This document shows positions 24,821 to 54,029 of a stretch of 54,721 bases of DNA, piece by piece (position 1 is the first letter of the stretch; the number at the start of each line of letters is the position of its first letter). Location: the NCBI GenBank assembly GCA_945889015.1, contig CAMDBL010000005.1, positions 1-54,721 of the forward strand, read 5' to 3'. Source of the DNA: Devosia equisanguinis. Its GTDB lineage: Bacteria > Pseudomonadota > Alphaproteobacteria > Rhizobiales > Hyphomicrobiaceae. The translations under genes and the position numbers were made by a program. The notes under the pieces are model-generated. The model ran no database searches, was not told the origin of the DNA, and saw only the letters and a program-made list of their open reading frames with translations.

Positions 24821-26650
24821 GTGAAGAAGCCGAAAAAGCCGAAGGCGAAGCGCCCGGCGCCCGCCGATACGGGGCGTGGAGCGCGCTCGGCCGGCGACGG
24901 CGGCGCGCAGCTCGGCGCGGCCGCGACGGCGTTTCTGCGCCGCGGATCCCCTCCGCCGGCTGTGACGCCTTCCGCGCGCGATATGCAACCCGGGCCGGGC
25001 AAGATCCTCGAGACAAGCCGGGGAAGCGGGGCACTGGGCGCGTCCGCGCGCGCTTTCCTGCGCAGCACGCCGGCGTCCCGGCCGGGTCCGTCCAGCCGCC
25101 TGACGCGGTCGTTGACCTCGGCGGTGTCGGATACCTTTGACCAGCGCGAGCTGTTGACGCTGCTGGTGCTGCCGTTCTTCCTGTTGGCGTTCGCATTGGC
25201 CCTGAGCCAATCCTGGCGGCACCCTGTGCGCACCGCGCTCGAGACGCCGGTGGCGCCGCGCGGCACCGAGACCGCGATCGCACCGCCGGCAGCTGTCGTG
25301 GCACCGGCTCCACGGCCGGCCCTGCCGACGCCCCCAGTCATCGCCGCGCTGCCGCCTGAGGCACCTGCCGCCGCATCGCCGCCCGCAGTGCAGGCTCCAA
25401 TGGAGCTGGCCCCGCCCGTGGTGCGGCTGCCGGGAACGCCGCCGATTGTCGATACCCCGGTCCCGGTCGAGCTGGCGAAGCCGGTGCCGGTGCTCCGCAC
25501 GGCTCCCCCCGCGATCGCGCTGCCGGAGATCGCGCTCACCGCGCCTGTGCCGGCGCTGCCGACCGCTGCGCCCGAGATCGCGAGGCCCCAGACGGCAAGG
25601 TCGGAGACGGCGTTGCCGCAGATCGCGCTGGCGCCGCCCGCGTTCGTCCTGCCGGCCACGCCCCCGGCGATCACGGCCCCGCCCATGATCGTCGCCTCAC
25701 CGAGTCTCGCGATGCCGGTGACGGCGCCGGCGGTGACGCCTCCGGTCGAGCCGTCGGCCCTACCCGCATGGCCTCGCGCGGCCACGCCGCCTCCGCCGCC
25801 GCCCGCGCAGCGCGAGGCGAAGCTCGCACCCGTGTTGCCACGCTTCGACACCGAGACATCGCCACTGGACGGCCCTCAGGCTTGCCTCGCCACGCCCGGC
25901 TTCGGCCGCCCCGCCTACTCCGTTCGCCCGGTCGCGGCGGGAGAGGATTTCGGCGAGCGGCTCGCCGTCGCCGCGCGCGAGCAGACCGGCGAGTTCGTCG
26001 TCTACAACGACGCCTACCGCCGCATGTCCTTCCCGATGGGCGACGTCCATCCGATGTACGGCGTGTGCACGGACGTGCTCATCCGCGCCTATCGCGCCGT
26101 CGGCGTCGATCTGCAGGAGCTGGTGGCGAAGGCGCGCGTCGGCTCGGGCGACACCAGCATCCAGCACCGCCGCGTCGATACGCTGCGCAAGTTCTTCGCC
26201 GCGAAGGGCGCCTCGCTGCCGATCACGACCTTCCCCGAGGACTACAGGCCCGGCGATGTCGTTTCCTATCACCGGCCGCAGAACGCGCACTCGCGCACGC
26301 ACATCGCCATCGTCAGCGACGTGGTGGCGCCGTCCGGCCGGCTGATGATCGTGCACAATCGTGGCTGGGGCCCGCAGCTCGAGGACGCGCTGTTCGTCGA
26401 CCAGATCACCGGGCATTACCGCTATCTGCCGCAGCCCACGACGCCGCTCGTGGCCGGCACGCGCCGGCCCGCCGAGGCGGCTGCCGGTGTGGCGGCTGCC
26501 TCGCGCAAGCCGGTGGCACGGCCCACGGTGGCCAAGCCCGCGGCGACGACCAAGCCTGTGGTCAAGGCTGCGTTCACGCCGGCCGGCCGTCCGCAGGCGA
26601 CGGCGAGCGCGAAGCCCGCCCGCACCGGCCTGCCGACCGGCCCGCAATGA
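24821..26650 (+). CDS. DUF1287 family protein with N-terminal TM segment and long Pro/Ala-rich linker
   Basis: GTG start; TM LLTLLVLPFFLLAFALALS; about 210 aa Pro/Ala/Val linker; C-terminal VYNDAYRRMSFPMGDVHPMYGVCTDVLIRAYRAVGVDLQELV...GDVVSYHRPQNAHSRTHIAIVSD. Confidence 0.85.
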   Translation: MKKPKKPKAKRPAPADTGRGARSAGDGGAQLGAAATAFLRRGSPPPAVTPSARDMQPGPGKILETSRGSGALGASARAFLRSTPASRPGPSSRLTRSLTSAVSDTFDQRELLTLLVLPFFLLAFALALSQSWRHPVRTALETPVAPRGTETAIAPPAAVVAPAPRPALPTPPVIAALPPEAPAAASPPAVQAPMELAPPVVRLPGTPPIVDTPVPVELAKPVPVLRTAPPAIALPEIALTAPVPALPTAAPEIARPQTARSETALPQIALAPPAFVLPATPPAITAPPMIVASPSLAMPVTAPAVTPPVEPSALPAWPRAATPPPPPPAQREAKLAPVLPRFDTETSPLDGPQACLATPGFGRPAYSVRPVAAGEDFGERLAVAAREQTGEFVVYNDAYRRMSFPMGDVHPMYGVCTDVLIRAYRAVGVDLQELVAKARVGSGDTSIQHRRVDTLRKFFAAKGASLPITTFPEDYRPGDVVSYHRPQNAHSRTHIAIVSDVVAPSGRLMIVHNRGWGPQLEDALFVDQITGHYRYLPQPTTPLVAGTRRPAEAAAGVAAASRKPVARPTVAKPAATTKPVVKAAFTPAGRPQATASAKPARTGLPTGPQ

Positions 26651-47048: not shown

Positions 47049-49007
47049 ATGCGAAGAATGGGCATTGCTCTGGCGGCGCTTCTCGCAGCGGTGCTCCCCG
47101 TGCGTGCCCAATCCGATTGGGCGCAGGATATTTTCCGTAGCTTGCAGAGCAAGCCGCCCTTGGACGCCGCCGAGCCCGGTGCGAAGGCGCGCTCACCCAC
47201 CGGCAAGCCAACGCGAACTGCGCGAGGCGCCAGAGCCGATGATACGGAGGACGATCAGGACGCGGCCGCCGGCGCCAAGAAGGAAAACGTGTGGGTGCGG
47301 CCCGATCTGCCGCCTGGCAAGGGCCAATGGCAGTGGCGTATCCTGAAGGCTGAATGGTCGGAGGAGGATACGCGAGGCTTCGAGGCGTTCATCACCGCGA
47401 TTGGCGAGAGCGAATGCAAGACGGTGCATGAGTGCATCACCTCGTCCGCATCCAATCCGAACTATCACGCGACCAACCCGCCCTACACCGAGTTCCGCGC
47501 CGATTGCGCCGATCTGCCGGGCTTCTTGCGCGGCTACTTCGCCTGGAAGAACGGTCTGCCGTTCTCGTTTTCCATCAAGTACGGCGCGCATCCACGTGCC
47601 ACCGGCAATAAGAACGGCATCACCGGCAACCAGATCACCGAACGCTTCGACATCGTAGGCCCAGGTCCCGATGGCCGCCGGGCCTTGCCAGTGATCGGTC
47701 AGTATGTCTCGACCGAGCATTTCCGCGTGCCGCCGGCCTATGCCGGCAAGCTGCTGCCCGATTATTATCCGGTGAAGCTCACCCGTGAGAGCATCCGAGC
47801 GGGCACCGTCATCTTCGATCCCGACGGGCACGTCGCGGTGGTCTACAAGGTGTCGGACGACGGTCTCATCCATTACATCGACGCTCACCCCGACAACTCG
47901 CTGACGCGGGGCATCTACGGGCGGGATTTTGCCCGCGCGCTGCCCGAGATGGGCGCCGGGTTCAAGCGCTGGCGTCCGCAGAGGCTGGTCGGGGCCAAGC
48001 GCGGTGGTGACGGTCAGCTCGTCGGCGGGCGGATCGAACTCAGCTCGGACAGCTCCCTCGCCGACTGGTCGGACGAGCAATATTACGGCACCGCGACGCC
48101 GCGTTCTCGGGTTTGGAGCGACGGCAAGTTTCCGGTGTCGAGCGGCAGCGAGGCTGACTACTACGACTACCTGCGCCTCAGCCTCGCGGGACCGGACTTC
48201 AAGTACAAGCCGCTGGAGGAGACGCGGACCCGCATCCGCTCGTTGTGCGACGATCTCAAGGAGCGGGTGGAGGCCGTCGATCTCGCGGTCAAAGCCGGCT
48301 ATCCGCGCAAGCCGCAGCCGTCGAAGTTGCCACCGAACATCTACTCCACTACCGGCGACTGGGAGATCTATTCCACGCCCTCCCGGGACGCCCGGCTCAA
48401 GACCTCGTTCGAGGAATTGCGCGACGAGGTGCTGCGGTTCATCCTGATGAGCGGCCAAGACAACACGCTGCTGGACTATTCGGGCAAGGATCTCAGGGCC
48501 GAGCTGCGGCACGTCTACGACAAGGAAGCCAGTGCCTGCACGATCACCTACGTTCAGACAGGCGGGATCAGTCGCTCGTTCGGTTTCACCGAGGCCATGC
48601 GGCGGCTGTTCCACATGTCGTTCGATCCGTATCACTGCGTCGAGCTGAGGTGGGGCGCGACAACGGTCGAGGAGCTGAGAACCTGCCCGGACGGCGCCGA
48701 GAAACGTGCCTGGTACAAGGCCCAGGCCCGGCTGCGCAACCAGCTGACGCGCACTTATGGCGAGCCGATGGGCTGGACGCTCGCCCAGTTGCAGAACCCG
48801 CAAGTCGATATCGGTATCGCCGAGGTTCCCGACGTCGATGTCGAGAAGGTGCTGGACGGTATCGTGGAGCCCGGGCCGGTCGCAGGCGGGGAGACGGCGG
48901 GTGTGACCCCGGGTCGCAATCGGCGTGGCGGCGCCCGTGCCGGTCAGCCGGCGCCTAGACGCGGGACGACCGAGCGAATGCTGGTTCCGGCGGGCCACAG
49001 GCCTTGA
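47049..49007 (+). CDS. Secreted protein of unknown function, possible Cys/His (NlpC/P60- or papain-like) N-terminal half
   Basis: 652 aa; signal peptide MRRMGIALAALLAAVLPVRAQS; FRADCADLPGFLRGYFAWKNGLPF ... GTVIFDPDGHVAVVYKVSDDGLIHYIDAHPDNS. Confidence 0.75.
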   Translation: MRRMGIALAALLAAVLPVRAQSDWAQDIFRSLQSKPPLDAAEPGAKARSPTGKPTRTARGARADDTEDDQDAAAGAKKENVWVRPDLPPGKGQWQWRILKAEWSEEDTRGFEAFITAIGESECKTVHECITSSASNPNYHATNPPYTEFRADCADLPGFLRGYFAWKNGLPFSFSIKYGAHPRATGNKNGITGNQITERFDIVGPGPDGRRALPVIGQYVSTEHFRVPPAYAGKLLPDYYPVKLTRESIRAGTVIFDPDGHVAVVYKVSDDGLIHYIDAHPDNSLTRGIYGRDFARALPEMGAGFKRWRPQRLVGAKRGGDGQLVGGRIELSSDSSLADWSDEQYYGTATPRSRVWSDGKFPVSSGSEADYYDYLRLSLAGPDFKYKPLEETRTRIRSLCDDLKERVEAVDLAVKAGYPRKPQPSKLPPNIYSTTGDWEIYSTPSRDARLKTSFEELRDEVLRFILMSGQDNTLLDYSGKDLRAELRHVYDKEASACTITYVQTGGISRSFGFTEAMRRLFHMSFDPYHCVELRWGATTVEELRTCPDGAEKRAWYKAQARLRNQLTRTYGEPMGWTLAQLQNPQVDIGIAEVPDVDVEKVLDGIVEPGPVAGGETAGVTPGRNRRGGARAGQPAPRRGTTERMLVPAGHRP

Positions 49008-49191: not shown

Positions 49192-52100
49192 ATGACCACC
49201 GCGACCAGCGACACGGCGCAGGCGATCCTGCTGGGCGAAACGCGCCCGGATCTGATCCGCGACGAGACGCTTTCTGCACTGTTCCGCGCAACGGTCGCGC
49301 GGACGCCGGACAAGGTTGCCCTTTCGCTGATCGGCAGCGACGAGGCGCTCAGCTACCGTGAGCTCGATCGGCGCTCGGACCTCGTCGCCGCGGCACTCGC
49401 CGCCCGCGGTATCGGCCGCGGCGAATTCGTCGGGCTCTGGTTTCGCCGCTCCATCGACCTTCATGTCGGATTGCTGGGGATCGTCAAGACCGGCGCAGCC
49501 TTCATTCCCTTCGACGCCGACATTCCCGCCGACCGCGTCTCGGTCAGCCTCGGGGACTGCGGAGCGCGGGTTTTGCTCACCCACGACGCGATGGCTGGCC
49601 GCGCCACCGGCGTCGGGGTCGAGGTGCTGCCGCTGGAGCAGTGTCTGACCGGTCCCGTCGGCGCGGCGCCCCGCGACACGGCCGGGCCGGGCGATCCGGC
49701 CTATGCGATCTACACTTCGGGCACCACGGGCAAGCCCAAGGGCATCGTCATCTCGCAGCGCAACGTCTGCCACTACCTGCGCGCGGGCAACGAGCTGCTC
49801 GGAATTTGCGACACTGACGTGGTGCTGCAGCAGGCCTCCGTCGCCTTCGATCTGTCGATCGAGGAGATCTTCATTCCCTATCTCGTCGGCGCCACCATGA
49901 AAGTGGCGACGCTGGAGACGCTGCGCCAGACCGACCGCCTCGCCGATTTTCTCGAGGCCGAGGGCATCACTGTCATAGACACGGTGCCGACGCTGCTGAC
50001 GATGCTGGAGCGCGACGTGCCGGGTGTGCGCCTGATCATCGTCGGCGGCGAGGCCTGTCCGCCCGCGCTCGTCGAGCGGCTGGCGCGGCCCGGCCGGCGG
50101 ATCGTCAACACCTATGGTCCGACCGAGACGACGGTGGTCGCGACCGCGATCGACTTGGTGCCGGGCGAGGCCGTGACCATCGGCCGGCCGATCGCCAACT
50201 ACACCGCTTACGTGGTCGACGACGAGTTGCGGCTGGTGGCGCCGGGCGCGACCGGAGAACTGTTGATCGGGGGGCCGGGTGTCGCCGGTGGCTATATCAA
50301 CCAGCCGGGTCTCACCGCGCAGAAATTCATCGCCAATCCGTTTGCCGGCCGCTCCGGCGCCGACCCTGTGCTCTATCGCAGCGGAGATGCCGTCAGCCTC
50401 GACGGTAACGGGCTCATCCGCTTCCACGGTCGCATCGACACTCAGGTCAAGATCCGCGGCTTCCGTATCGAGCTCGGCGAAATCGAGACGCTGATCGCCG
50501 ACGAACCCGGGGTGCAGTCGGCGGTCGTCACCGTATCGCAGGGTGTCGCCGGCGACGCGCTCGTGGCCCACGTGGTTGCGAAGGGTGGAGAGACGTTCGA
50601 CAGCGCCGCCGCGAAATCCTCGATCAGTGGCAAGTTGCCCCCCTACATGGTGCCGGCACACTGGCGCGTGCACGACAGTCTGCCGCGCCTCACCTCCGGC
50701 AAGATCGACCGCAAGTCGCTGGCCGAGGAGCCGATCGCGGCGACCATGACCGCCGGTGAGCAGGAGCCGCCGCGCTCGCTGACGGAAGCGCACCTGCTGA
50801 AGGCGGCCAAGGACGTGATGGGCCTGCCGGCGCTGAGCTTCGACGCGGATTTCTTCAACGATCTCGGTGGCAATTCGCTGATCGCGGCACGCTTCGTCTC
50901 GGAGGTCAGGCGCATCCCACATCTGTCGGGGATCGCGCTGCAGGACATTTACAACGAGAAGACGTTGCGCCGGGTCGGTGCCGTGCTCGACCAGCGCGCC
51001 AAGAGCGAGCCTCTCGGCCGCGCCGACCTCTCTTTCGAGCCTGTGCCGCTGCGCCGCCGATTCCTGTGTGGACTCGGCCAGGCGATCGCGCTGCCGTTCA
51101 TCATCGCGGTGGTGACCACCCAGTGGATCGGCCTTCTGCTGGCCTCGATCTATCTGGTCCGCGACGGGACGCCTTTGTGGCTCGAGATCGTGATCCTGTG
51201 CCTCATCTACCTCATGCTCAACCTTGGCACCAAGGTCATGGTGGTGGCCTTGAAATGGCTCGTCATCGGCCGCACGAAGCCGGGCATCTACCCGTTGTGG
51301 GGCTGGTATTATTTCCGCATCTGGATGATGCAGCGCGTCGTGCATCTGACCGCGCACAAGTTCCTGCAGGGCACGCCGCTGATGCGCCTCTACCTGCGCG
51401 CGCTCGGCGCCAGGATCGGAAAGGATGCGATCATCAACGAGTTCGAGGACGGCGCCATCGACCTGATGACGATCGGTCCGCGCTCCAGCCTCGGCTCAAA
51501 GGTCAAGCTCGCCAACGTCGAGGTGGTCGGCAATCTGGTCTATGTCGGCGTGATCAACGTCGGCGCCGACGTATCTATCGGCAACGGCTGCGTCATCGGC
51601 TACGACACCCACATCGGCGACAACGCCGAGATCGGCGACCTGACCTGCGTCCCGCCAGGCGCCCGTGTCGGTGCCTGCGAGATCTGGGACGGCGCCCCGC
51701 CGCGCTGCATCGGCAAGGTGGACGTCGCGGCGCAGCCGGCACATCCCGAGGCCGGCCCGCTCAAGCGCGCGTGGCAGGGCCTGTGCTACTTCATGGCCTA
51801 CAACATAGTGATGATGGTTGGTCTGCTGCCGATCTTCCCGGCGTTCTACGTGCTGTCCTACATCGACGACAGCACCTCCGGCGACCGCGACCACTACCTG
51901 CCGTGGGGCTGGGTGTTCGTCTACGCTTGGCCCGCCGCGCTGGTGCTGGTGTTCGTGTCGATGGCGATCGTCATCGCGATGCGTTGGATGATCATCCCCG
52001 AGCGCGTGAAGCCTGGACGCTACTCCATCTTCAGCAACTTCTACTACCGCAAGTGGGTGATGTCGCTGGCCACCGAGACCATGCTGGAGACGCTGAACTC

Positions 52101-53247
52101 GCTGTATGCCACCGTGTTCATGCGCAACTGGTACCGGATGATGGGCACCAAGGTCGGTCGCGGCACGGAGATCTCCTCCAACTTCGCCGGGCGCTACGAC
52201 CTGATCGAACTCGGCGAGAACAACTTCCTCGGTGACGAGGCGATCTTCGGTGACGAGGACTTGCGCCGTGGCTGGATGATCATGGACCGCGTGAAGACCG
52301 GCGATCGCTGCTTCTTCGGCAACCTGTGCGTGATCTCGAAGGGCTCGACCATCGACAGCGACGCGCTGATCGGCGTCAAGACGCGGATGCCGGAAAGTCT
52401 GCACGTCAAGTCGGGGGAGACCTGGTTCGGCAGCCCGGCGATGCCGATGCCCAACCGGCAGCGCGTCTCGCTGACGGCGGACGCAACCTATCAGCCACCG
52501 CCGCAGATGCGCTGGCTGCGCACGCTGTTCGAGGCCGCGCACACCTCGCTACCAACCGCGGTGCTGATCACGCTCGCCTACATCACGGCCGACATCATGG
52601 AATTTCCGATGGACGCCGGCAACTGGGGCATGGCGTTGGCGATCTTCATGGCCGCCGGCGTCGTCACCTCCGCGATCATGTGTCTGGTCTCGATCTTCGT
52701 GAAATGGTCGATGATGGGCATCTATCGCCCGATGATGAAGCCGATGTGGTCGTGGTGGGCGATGCGGACCGAGGCGGTGGCCGTGCTCTATGGCGGCCTC
52801 TCCAGCAAGGTGCTGCTCGACTACCTGCGCGGCACGCCGTTCCTGCCCTGGATGCTGAGGTTGTACGGCACCAAGATCGGCAAGGGTGTCTGGCTGAACA
52901 GCGCCGACCTCACCGAGTTCGATTGCGTGACGATCGGTGATCATGCCGTCGTCAACATGCAGTCGAGCCCGCAGACGCACCTCTACGAGGATCGGGTGAT
53001 GAAGGTCGGCCGCATCGAGATCGGCAAGGGGGTCACCGTCGGCACCGCCGCGATCATCCTCTACGACAGCGTCATCGGCGACTATGCGCGGCTGGGACCG
53101 CTGACGGTGGTGATGAAAGGCGAGTACATTCCGCCGCACACCGTCTGGAGCGGCGCGCCGGCGCGACGGGCGACGGCACAGGACGCGGCGCTGATCGCCG
53201 GCGGTGCCGGTGTCCAGACCGCGGAGGTGGCGGCGTCCGTCGCCTGA
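49192..53247 (+). CDS. Pls/PosA-like single-module non-ribosomal peptide synthetase (A-T-TM/hexapeptide-repeat domains)
   Basis: 1351 aa; A-domain motifs YTSGTTGKPKGIVISQ, NTYGPTETTVVAT, YRSGDAVSLDGNGLIRFHGRIDTQVKIRGFRIELGEIE; T domain FFNDLGGNSLIAARF; six TM segments alternating with three hexapeptide-rich domains; no condensation or thioesterase domain. Confidence 0.93.
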   Translation: MTTATSDTAQAILLGETRPDLIRDETLSALFRATVARTPDKVALSLIGSDEALSYRELDRRSDLVAAALAARGIGRGEFVGLWFRRSIDLHVGLLGIVKTGAAFIPFDADIPADRVSVSLGDCGARVLLTHDAMAGRATGVGVEVLPLEQCLTGPVGAAPRDTAGPGDPAYAIYTSGTTGKPKGIVISQRNVCHYLRAGNELLGICDTDVVLQQASVAFDLSIEEIFIPYLVGATMKVATLETLRQTDRLADFLEAEGITVIDTVPTLLTMLERDVPGVRLIIVGGEACPPALVERLARPGRRIVNTYGPTETTVVATAIDLVPGEAVTIGRPIANYTAYVVDDELRLVAPGATGELLIGGPGVAGGYINQPGLTAQKFIANPFAGRSGADPVLYRSGDAVSLDGNGLIRFHGRIDTQVKIRGFRIELGEIETLIADEPGVQSAVVTVSQGVAGDALVAHVVAKGGETFDSAAAKSSISGKLPPYMVPAHWRVHDSLPRLTSGKIDRKSLAEEPIAATMTAGEQEPPRSLTEAHLLKAAKDVMGLPALSFDADFFNDLGGNSLIAARFVSEVRRIPHLSGIALQDIYNEKTLRRVGAVLDQRAKSEPLGRADLSFEPVPLRRRFLCGLGQAIALPFIIAVVTTQWIGLLLASIYLVRDGTPLWLEIVILCLIYLMLNLGTKVMVVALKWLVIGRTKPGIYPLWGWYYFRIWMMQRVVHLTAHKFLQGTPLMRLYLRALGARIGKDAIINEFEDGAIDLMTIGPRSSLGSKVKLANVEVVGNLVYVGVINVGADVSIGNGCVIGYDTHIGDNAEIGDLTCVPPGARVGACEIWDGAPPRCIGKVDVAAQPAHPEAGPLKRAWQGLCYFMAYNIVMMVGLLPIFPAFYVLSYIDDSTSGDRDHYLPWGWVFVYAWPAALVLVFVSMAIVIAMRWMIIPERVKPGRYSIFSNFYYRKWVMSLATETMLETLNSLYATVFMRNWYRMMGTKVGRGTEISSNFAGRYDLIELGENNFLGDEAIFGDEDLRRGWMIMDRVKTGDRCFFGNLCVISKGSTIDSDALIGVKTRMPESLHVKSGETWFGSPAMPMPNRQRVSLTADATYQPPPQMRWLRTLFEAAHTSLPTAVLITLAYITADIMEFPMDAGNWGMALAIFMAAGVVTSAIMCLVSIFVKWSMMGIYRPMMKPMWSWWAMRTEAVAVLYGGLSSKVLLDYLRGTPFLPWMLRLYGTKIGKGVWLNSADLTEFDCVTIGDHAVVNMQSSPQTHLYEDRVMKVGRIEIGKGVTVGTAAIILYDSVIGDYARLGPLTVVMKGEYIPPHTVWSGAPARRATAQDAALIAGGAGVQTAEVAASVA

Positions 53248-53275
53248 GCAGCGGCCGGCTGTCGGAGCGTGTGCG

Positions 53276-53884
53276 ATGGTGGTGTTGCGACTGGGACCGG
53301 CGATCGCCCTGCTGCGCTCGGGAGTCGGGCCGAGGCGCCCGGAACATGATCGCATCGCCACCGCCGACCTGATCGCTGCGACAGGGCGCTTCGACATCGC
53401 GGTCGAGCGCCGGCCGAGCGGCCGGCCGCGCCTCGCGCCACCCTATCCCGAGCTCGGCGTTTCGTTCTCCTGGCGCGATGGACTGCTGCTCGCGGGTTTC
53501 GATCCGGAGGGTGCCGTCGGCGTCGATATCGAGCCCGCGGACACGTCCGGCAGGCTGGAGCCGGGACGACTCGCGAGCGATCACTTCGCGCCCGGCGAAG
53601 CGGCGGCGGTGATGGCGAGGTCCGGTGACGACGCGCTGGATCTGTTTCTGCGCCTGTGGGTCGCCAAGGAGGCCGTGCTCAAGCTGACCGGGCGGGGCGT
53701 CTACGACGGCCTGCACAGGCCCGATCTCGGCTGGTGCATCGCCTCGATCTCGGGTGATGGCACGCCGATACGCCTGCAGGGGACGCCAGGGCATACAGCC
53801 GTCGAGGTCGCCGTCGCCCGCCCCGCGGTCCCTGGCCGGCCGGCGCCGCCCTATTGCGCGCTAGCCCGGCTCCTGCAGGAGTGA
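53276..53884 (+). CDS. Sfp-type 4'-phosphopantetheinyl transferase
   Basis: AVGVDIEPADTSGRLEPGRLASDHFAPGEAA...LDLFLRLWVAKEAVLKLTGRGV (GVDIE and W..KEA..K signatures); 28 bp after the NRPS stop. Confidence 0.88.
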   Translation: MVVLRLGPAIALLRSGVGPRRPEHDRIATADLIAATGRFDIAVERRPSGRPRLAPPYPELGVSFSWRDGLLLAGFDPEGAVGVDIEPADTSGRLEPGRLASDHFAPGEAAAVMARSGDDALDLFLRLWVAKEAVLKLTGRGVYDGLHRPDLGWCIASISGDGTPIRLQGTPGHTAVEVAVARPAVPGRPAPPYCALARLLQE

Positions 53885-53942: not shown

Positions 53943-54029
53943 GCGGACGTGGTGGAACCGGTAGACACACAGGACTTAAAATCCTGAGTTCGTAAGAGCG
54001 TGCGGGTTCGAGTCCCGCCGTCCGCACCA
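53943..54029 (+). tRNA. tRNA-Leu (anticodon UAA), CCA encoded
   Basis: gcggacg...cgtccgc acceptor stem, cttaaaa anticodon loop with taa, long variable arm, ggttcgagtcc T arm, 3' acca. Confidence 0.96.

Follow-up and report, generated by a model that had tools for sequence, protein, structure and literature searches.

Organisation of the locus

The window, by which we mean the whole 54,721-nucleotide stretch of Devosia equisanguinis DNA that was analysed, carries on its forward strand an ATG-initiated open reading frame (positions 49192-53247) encoding a single-module non-ribosomal peptide synthetase (NRPS) of 1351 aa, in which an adenylation (A) domain and a thiolation (T) domain are followed by a membrane polymerisation domain. 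The enzyme is of a known kind, the Pls/PosA family, which takes in the delta-poly-L-ornithine synthetase PosA of Acinetobacter, Pls of Streptomyces and the antiSMASH 'NAPAA' class. The NCBIfam model TIGR02353 ('Pls/PosA family NRPS') matches residues 630-1324 over its full length (3-695) with 565.3 bits against a cut-off of 423.1, and the protein is 36% identical to PosA. A Pfam scan returns AMP-binding (269.6 bits), AMP-binding_C (34.9), PP-binding (25.9, cut-off 20.8) and Hexapep (47.2); it thus finds one A and one T domain, as is typical of the family, and no condensation or thioesterase domain. The A domain (49249-50730) retains its core motifs YTSGTTGKPKG, NTYGPTE, YRSGD, GRIDTQVKIRG and LTSGKIDRK, and the carrier serine of the T domain (50794-50976) is Ser562 (codon 50875-50877), within an LGGNSL motif at residue 558. 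The C-terminal polymerisation domain occupies 51079-53163. The synthetase with all its parts, the PPTase gene and the CHAP-like gene described below lie on the forward strand.

A second gene starts with ATG 28 bases past the synthetase stop (53276-53884) and encodes a 202-aa Sfp-type 4'-phosphopantetheinyl transferase (PPTase). It belongs to the ACPS superfamily, matching PF01648 with 49.6 bits (cut-off 25), and its translation shows the motifs GVDIE and W-x-x-KE-x-x-x-K (WVAKEAVLK). The original prediction, made from the letters alone, had proposed the same A-T arrangement and carrier serine, a C-terminal part of six transmembrane segments alternating with three left-handed beta-helix-like domains, the lack of condensation and thioesterase domains, an architecture like that of Streptomyces albulus Pls and an Sfp-type PPTase 28 bp downstream, all of which agree with our results. 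A domain search and trees against Pls and PosA, which it had suggested as a check, confirm the family. The features of the synthetase and the PPTase are far beyond chance, and those of the synthetase are kept across more than 100 homologues. The draft genome (4.8 Mb) holds one full-length synthetase copy.

A tRNA-Leu(taa) gene lies at 53943-54029, about 60 bases past the PPTase gene. We considered it as an island boundary and set it aside: 10 of the 11 related loci scanned have no tRNA gene, the other has a tRNA-Ser on its upstream side, and in none does a tRNA follow the PPTase. Elsewhere in the window, the open reading frame at 24821-26650 has a DUF1287 domain towards its C terminus.

The C-terminal polymerisation domain is a pseudo-trimer

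An AlphaFold2 model of the C-terminal part, built on 15 sequences (mean pLDDT 83.1, pTM 0.84), shows long helices in three pairs, with a left-handed beta-helix after each pair. Pair 1 (residues 620-691, 51049-51264) and pair 2 (residues 856-934, 51757-51993) coincide with hydropathy peaks; in pair 3 (residues 1104-1174, 52501-52713) the hydropathy threshold is passed by the second helix only. Foldseek matches of the model are serine, maltose and galactoside acetyltransferases and gamma carbonic anhydrases; a profile search of solved structures finds single beta-helix relatives and none that spans the whole domain. HHalign comparisons show the three acetyltransferase-like repeats (C1, C2 and C3) to be homologous to one another (99.6-99.9%), so that the domain is a covalent pseudo-trimer mounted on six membrane helices, in agreement with the published model of PosA.

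Among 113 aligned homologues, which fall into separate pocket code classes, the sole invariant histidine of the C-terminal domain is His1263 (codon 52978-52980), in repeat C3; N1044 and Q630 are the remaining invariant polar residues, and all three are conserved in every class. His1263 aligns with the histidine of the TATHPL motif in SACOL2570, a galactoside O-acetyltransferase of S. aureus, which we take to be the catalytic histidine of that acetyltransferase family. The equivalent position is Val in C1 and Glu in C2. On this pattern of residues, we infer that the pseudo-trimer would have one working active site, in C3, with His1263 as the putative catalytic base and the pantetheine arm of the carrier domain taking the place of CoA. 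His1263 is accordingly offered as a concrete candidate for the catalytic centre. All three repeats are cited as essential in Pls in a passage of PMC4668381, in keeping with one active site within a pseudo-trimer.

Pocket code and likely monomer

Mapping on PosA (D217/M218/E221/H260/N280/G282/T304/V312/S313) gives the pocket residues of the A domain as D220, L221, E224, D263, I283, G285, T307, V315, V316 and K504, that is, the code DLEDIGTVVK. The Asp at position 1 (D220) and the Glu at position 3 (E224) are those of a pocket for a basic amino acid and are shared with PosA, the delta-poly-L-ornithine synthetase of Acinetobacter baumannii (PMC10522769), in which E221, the equivalent of E224, binds the side-chain amine of the substrate. 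PosA also shares the A-T arrangement and the C-terminal domain of six helices and three beta-helices, and its structure (8g95) is, together with that of epsilon-poly-L-lysine synthase (7wew), among the PDB relatives of our A domain. The code, however, is neither that of PosA proper (DMEHNGTVS against DLEDIGTVV) nor that of Pls, the epsilon-poly-L-lysine synthetase of S. albulus, which has the same architecture but a DAES-type code with Ala at position 2 (PMC10522769), where the window synthetase has Leu221.

The code itself has been seen before. Patel and Gulick report 'D L E D I G T V T/V/I K' for Archaea, rhizobia and Methylobacterium and list its substrate as unknown (PMC10522769), and the nearly identical DLEDLGTVVK is carried by the same class of protein in a NAPAA cluster found in all complete Bosea genomes (PMC10508160). 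The non-actinobacterial system of the original prediction is therefore not new, since PosA is published and the code already noted.

Neighbouring genes, identified from their translated sequences, offer a further clue to substrate in several classes. Synthetases of the DFEC class adjoin a class III aminotransferase, those of the DGES class a lysine-2,3-aminomutase-like gene and those of the DGSF class an SbnB-like gene. Four DGES-class (poly-beta-lysine-like) loci within the same order combine the lysine-2,3-aminomutase-like gene with a second conserved gene, taken as an acyltransferase-type hydrolase. Near DLED-class synthetases we found no recurrent diamino-acid biosynthesis gene among the neighbours annotated, an annotation that is partial and could miss one; this suggests a common primary metabolite as the monomer. 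An argJ gene of ornithine biosynthesis, 4 kb upstream in the window, was discarded as a substrate clue because it is in no cluster shared with other DLED loci.

PosA is the nearest characterised enzyme to the window synthetase. In a tree of the C-terminal domain it is sister to the whole DLED class (support 100/99), and in a tree of the A domain it falls inside the class with weak local support (88/48). Because of this proximity, and because no special diamino-acid gene was found alongside, L-ornithine is our best guess for the monomer, with about an even chance of being right. The Asp263 at code position 4, where PosA has His260, means that the monomer may differ from ornithine. The DLED code might thus select a monomer new to the Pls/PosA family, such as an analogue of arginine or an ornithine that is hydroxylated or N-modified, and yield an undescribed polymer. 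In favour of this, the pocket has two acids, E224 and D263, the latter kept in 88 of the 89 DLE-type loci; the code stands in the substrate-unknown list of Patel and Gulick; and a divergent member of the family, from the Bdellovibrionales, preferred arginine. We nevertheless consider a new monomer possible but somewhat doubtful, given that the nearest characterised enzyme uses ornithine, that H260 of PosA makes no contact with its substrate and that the annotated neighbours include no recurrent gene for making an unusual amino acid.

Distribution of the synthetase and its PPTase

The window synthetase belongs to a large alphaproteobacterial group. Its best matches among public sequences come from Devosia-type, Rhizobium and other Hyphomicrobiales loci, followed by Bosea, Methylobacterium and Azospirillum, and TIGR02353 proteins occur in 38 of the 103 genomes of the bacterial family of the window. 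With 88 of the collected loci carrying it, the DLED code marks a common type of poly(amino acid) synthetase in alphaproteobacteria. In 25 of 89 loci the DLED-class gene is flanked by fabI and aroC, often with dnaJ beyond them on the upstream side and a ribB-type gene on the downstream side; this arrangement suggests that the gene has long been inherited vertically at a single chromosomal position. The Azospirillum gene adjoins fumarate hydratase.

An adjacent PPTase orthologue is present in the window subclade (Devosia-type), in Rhizobium and in one other Rhizobiales locus, and directly downstream of the synthetase in the Devosia-type and Rhizobium loci. It is absent beside the synthetases of Bosea, Methylobacterium and Azospirillum and from most of the 89 DLED-class loci, so that linkage to a PPTase is a trait of the subclade and is ruled out as one of the whole class. 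PosA likewise differs from the window synthetase in having no adjacent PPTase, posA forming a single-gene operon, and the Bosea loci examined are unlike the window both in this respect and in the frequent placement of the gene between fabI and aroC. As the genome holds two further PPTase-family matches, the description of the pair as a self-sufficient cassette was too strong. A plasmid locus of Rhizobium sp. CCGE531, annotated as 'Pls/PosA family' and '4'-phosphopantetheinyl transferase', provides a close counterpart, with 61% identity, an identical code and the PPTase gene directly downstream; it is preceded by two-component regulators and lacks a CHAP-like gene, whereas the window has one.

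An upstream CHAP-like gene

Upstream of the synthetase, positions 47049-49007 encode a putatively secreted, CHAP-like (papain-fold amidase) protein of 652 aa with a hydrophobic N terminus and conserved C153, H261 and D278 as candidate catalytic residues. Weak CHAP matches were obtained for five of nine members of its family (best E 0.0038), and the window protein itself scores 12.5 bits, below the Pfam CHAP gathering score of 26. Both fold searches place CHAP proteins at the top of their lists, though below significance: Foldseek gave no significant match, its top PDB match being 5t1q, a CHAP amidase, and the sequence profile found no relative in the PDB. Members of the family, of about 550-650 aa and without a Pfam match over the cut-off, reach up to three copies per genome in other alphaproteobacterial families. 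At three loci of one genus the CHAP-like gene is divergent to a pair of aminotransferase and DFEC-class synthetase genes, with a GNAT acetyltransferase nearby.

Could the CHAP-like protein work together with the synthetase, by shortening or breaking down the polymer or by protecting the cell that makes it, in the manner of the metallopeptidase PldII, the neighbour of Pls in S. albulus? The gene adjoins synthetases of two code classes, DLED and DFEC, in seven genomes of three genera, and in the bacterial family of the window a synthetase occurs in 11 of 13 genomes with the CHAP-like gene and in 27 of the 90 that lack it (p = 2.5e-4 uncorrected, 0.04 by genus). Against this, the gene is found in 12 genomes of other families, none of which has a synthetase, and so it is not a dedicated partner; several copies lie in a housekeeping stretch with nuo, birA, rnj (RNase J), a class II tRNA synthetase, an FtsX-type ABC exporter and dnaE (DNA polymerase III); and the CHAP assignment is weak. 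We regard the CHAP-like gene as a linked neighbour of uncertain role, for which a partnership is a tentative reading at most.

Discussion

We propose that the window very probably encodes a membrane-bound synthetase of the Pls/PosA family that makes a cationic homo-poly(amino acid), by the following mechanism. The PPTase would load a 4'-phosphopantetheine arm on Ser562. The A domain would adenylate one basic amino acid, most likely L-ornithine, or failing that lysine or some other basic amino acid from primary metabolism, and hand it in activated form to the T domain. The C-terminal domain, in which acyltransferase repeats with a left-handed beta-helix fold form a covalent pseudo-trimer carried by six membrane helices, would then accept the aminoacyl-S-pantetheine arm in the position that acetyl-CoA has in related acetyltransferases. 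At the single complete site, at His1263 in C3, the side-chain amine of the free monomer or of the growing chain would attack the thioester, so that units may be added one by one as isopeptide bonds, and the short polycation would probably exit through or along the membrane helices.

The placement of the DLED gene between fabI and aroC in 25 of 89 loci is an odd site for an antibiotic gene, and an acyltransferase fold in the membrane could also serve to decorate an envelope lipid or glycan with single basic amino acids or very short chains, much as Dlt does with teichoic acid, and with no free polymer released; this is improbable, since the characterised homologues described in the literature consulted make free polymer and the same conserved residues are found throughout all substrate classes. 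A more speculative picture, which we hold to be unlikely, would have the alphaproteobacterial DLED class, fixed in many genera between fabI and aroC, make, from a monomer new to the family, a polymer that serves as a resident part of the envelope rather than as an antibiotic, the window subclade having moved out with its own PPTase.

For a homopolymer synthetase of the Pls/PosA family, the details that are new here are the invariance of His1263, the subclade-specific linkage of the PPTase and the occurrence of a CHAP-like gene beside synthetases of two classes. An assay of the A domain would yield the first substrate for the DLED class, and, with the proposal for His1263, a single mutant would put the poorly understood polymerisation step of the C-terminal domain to the test.
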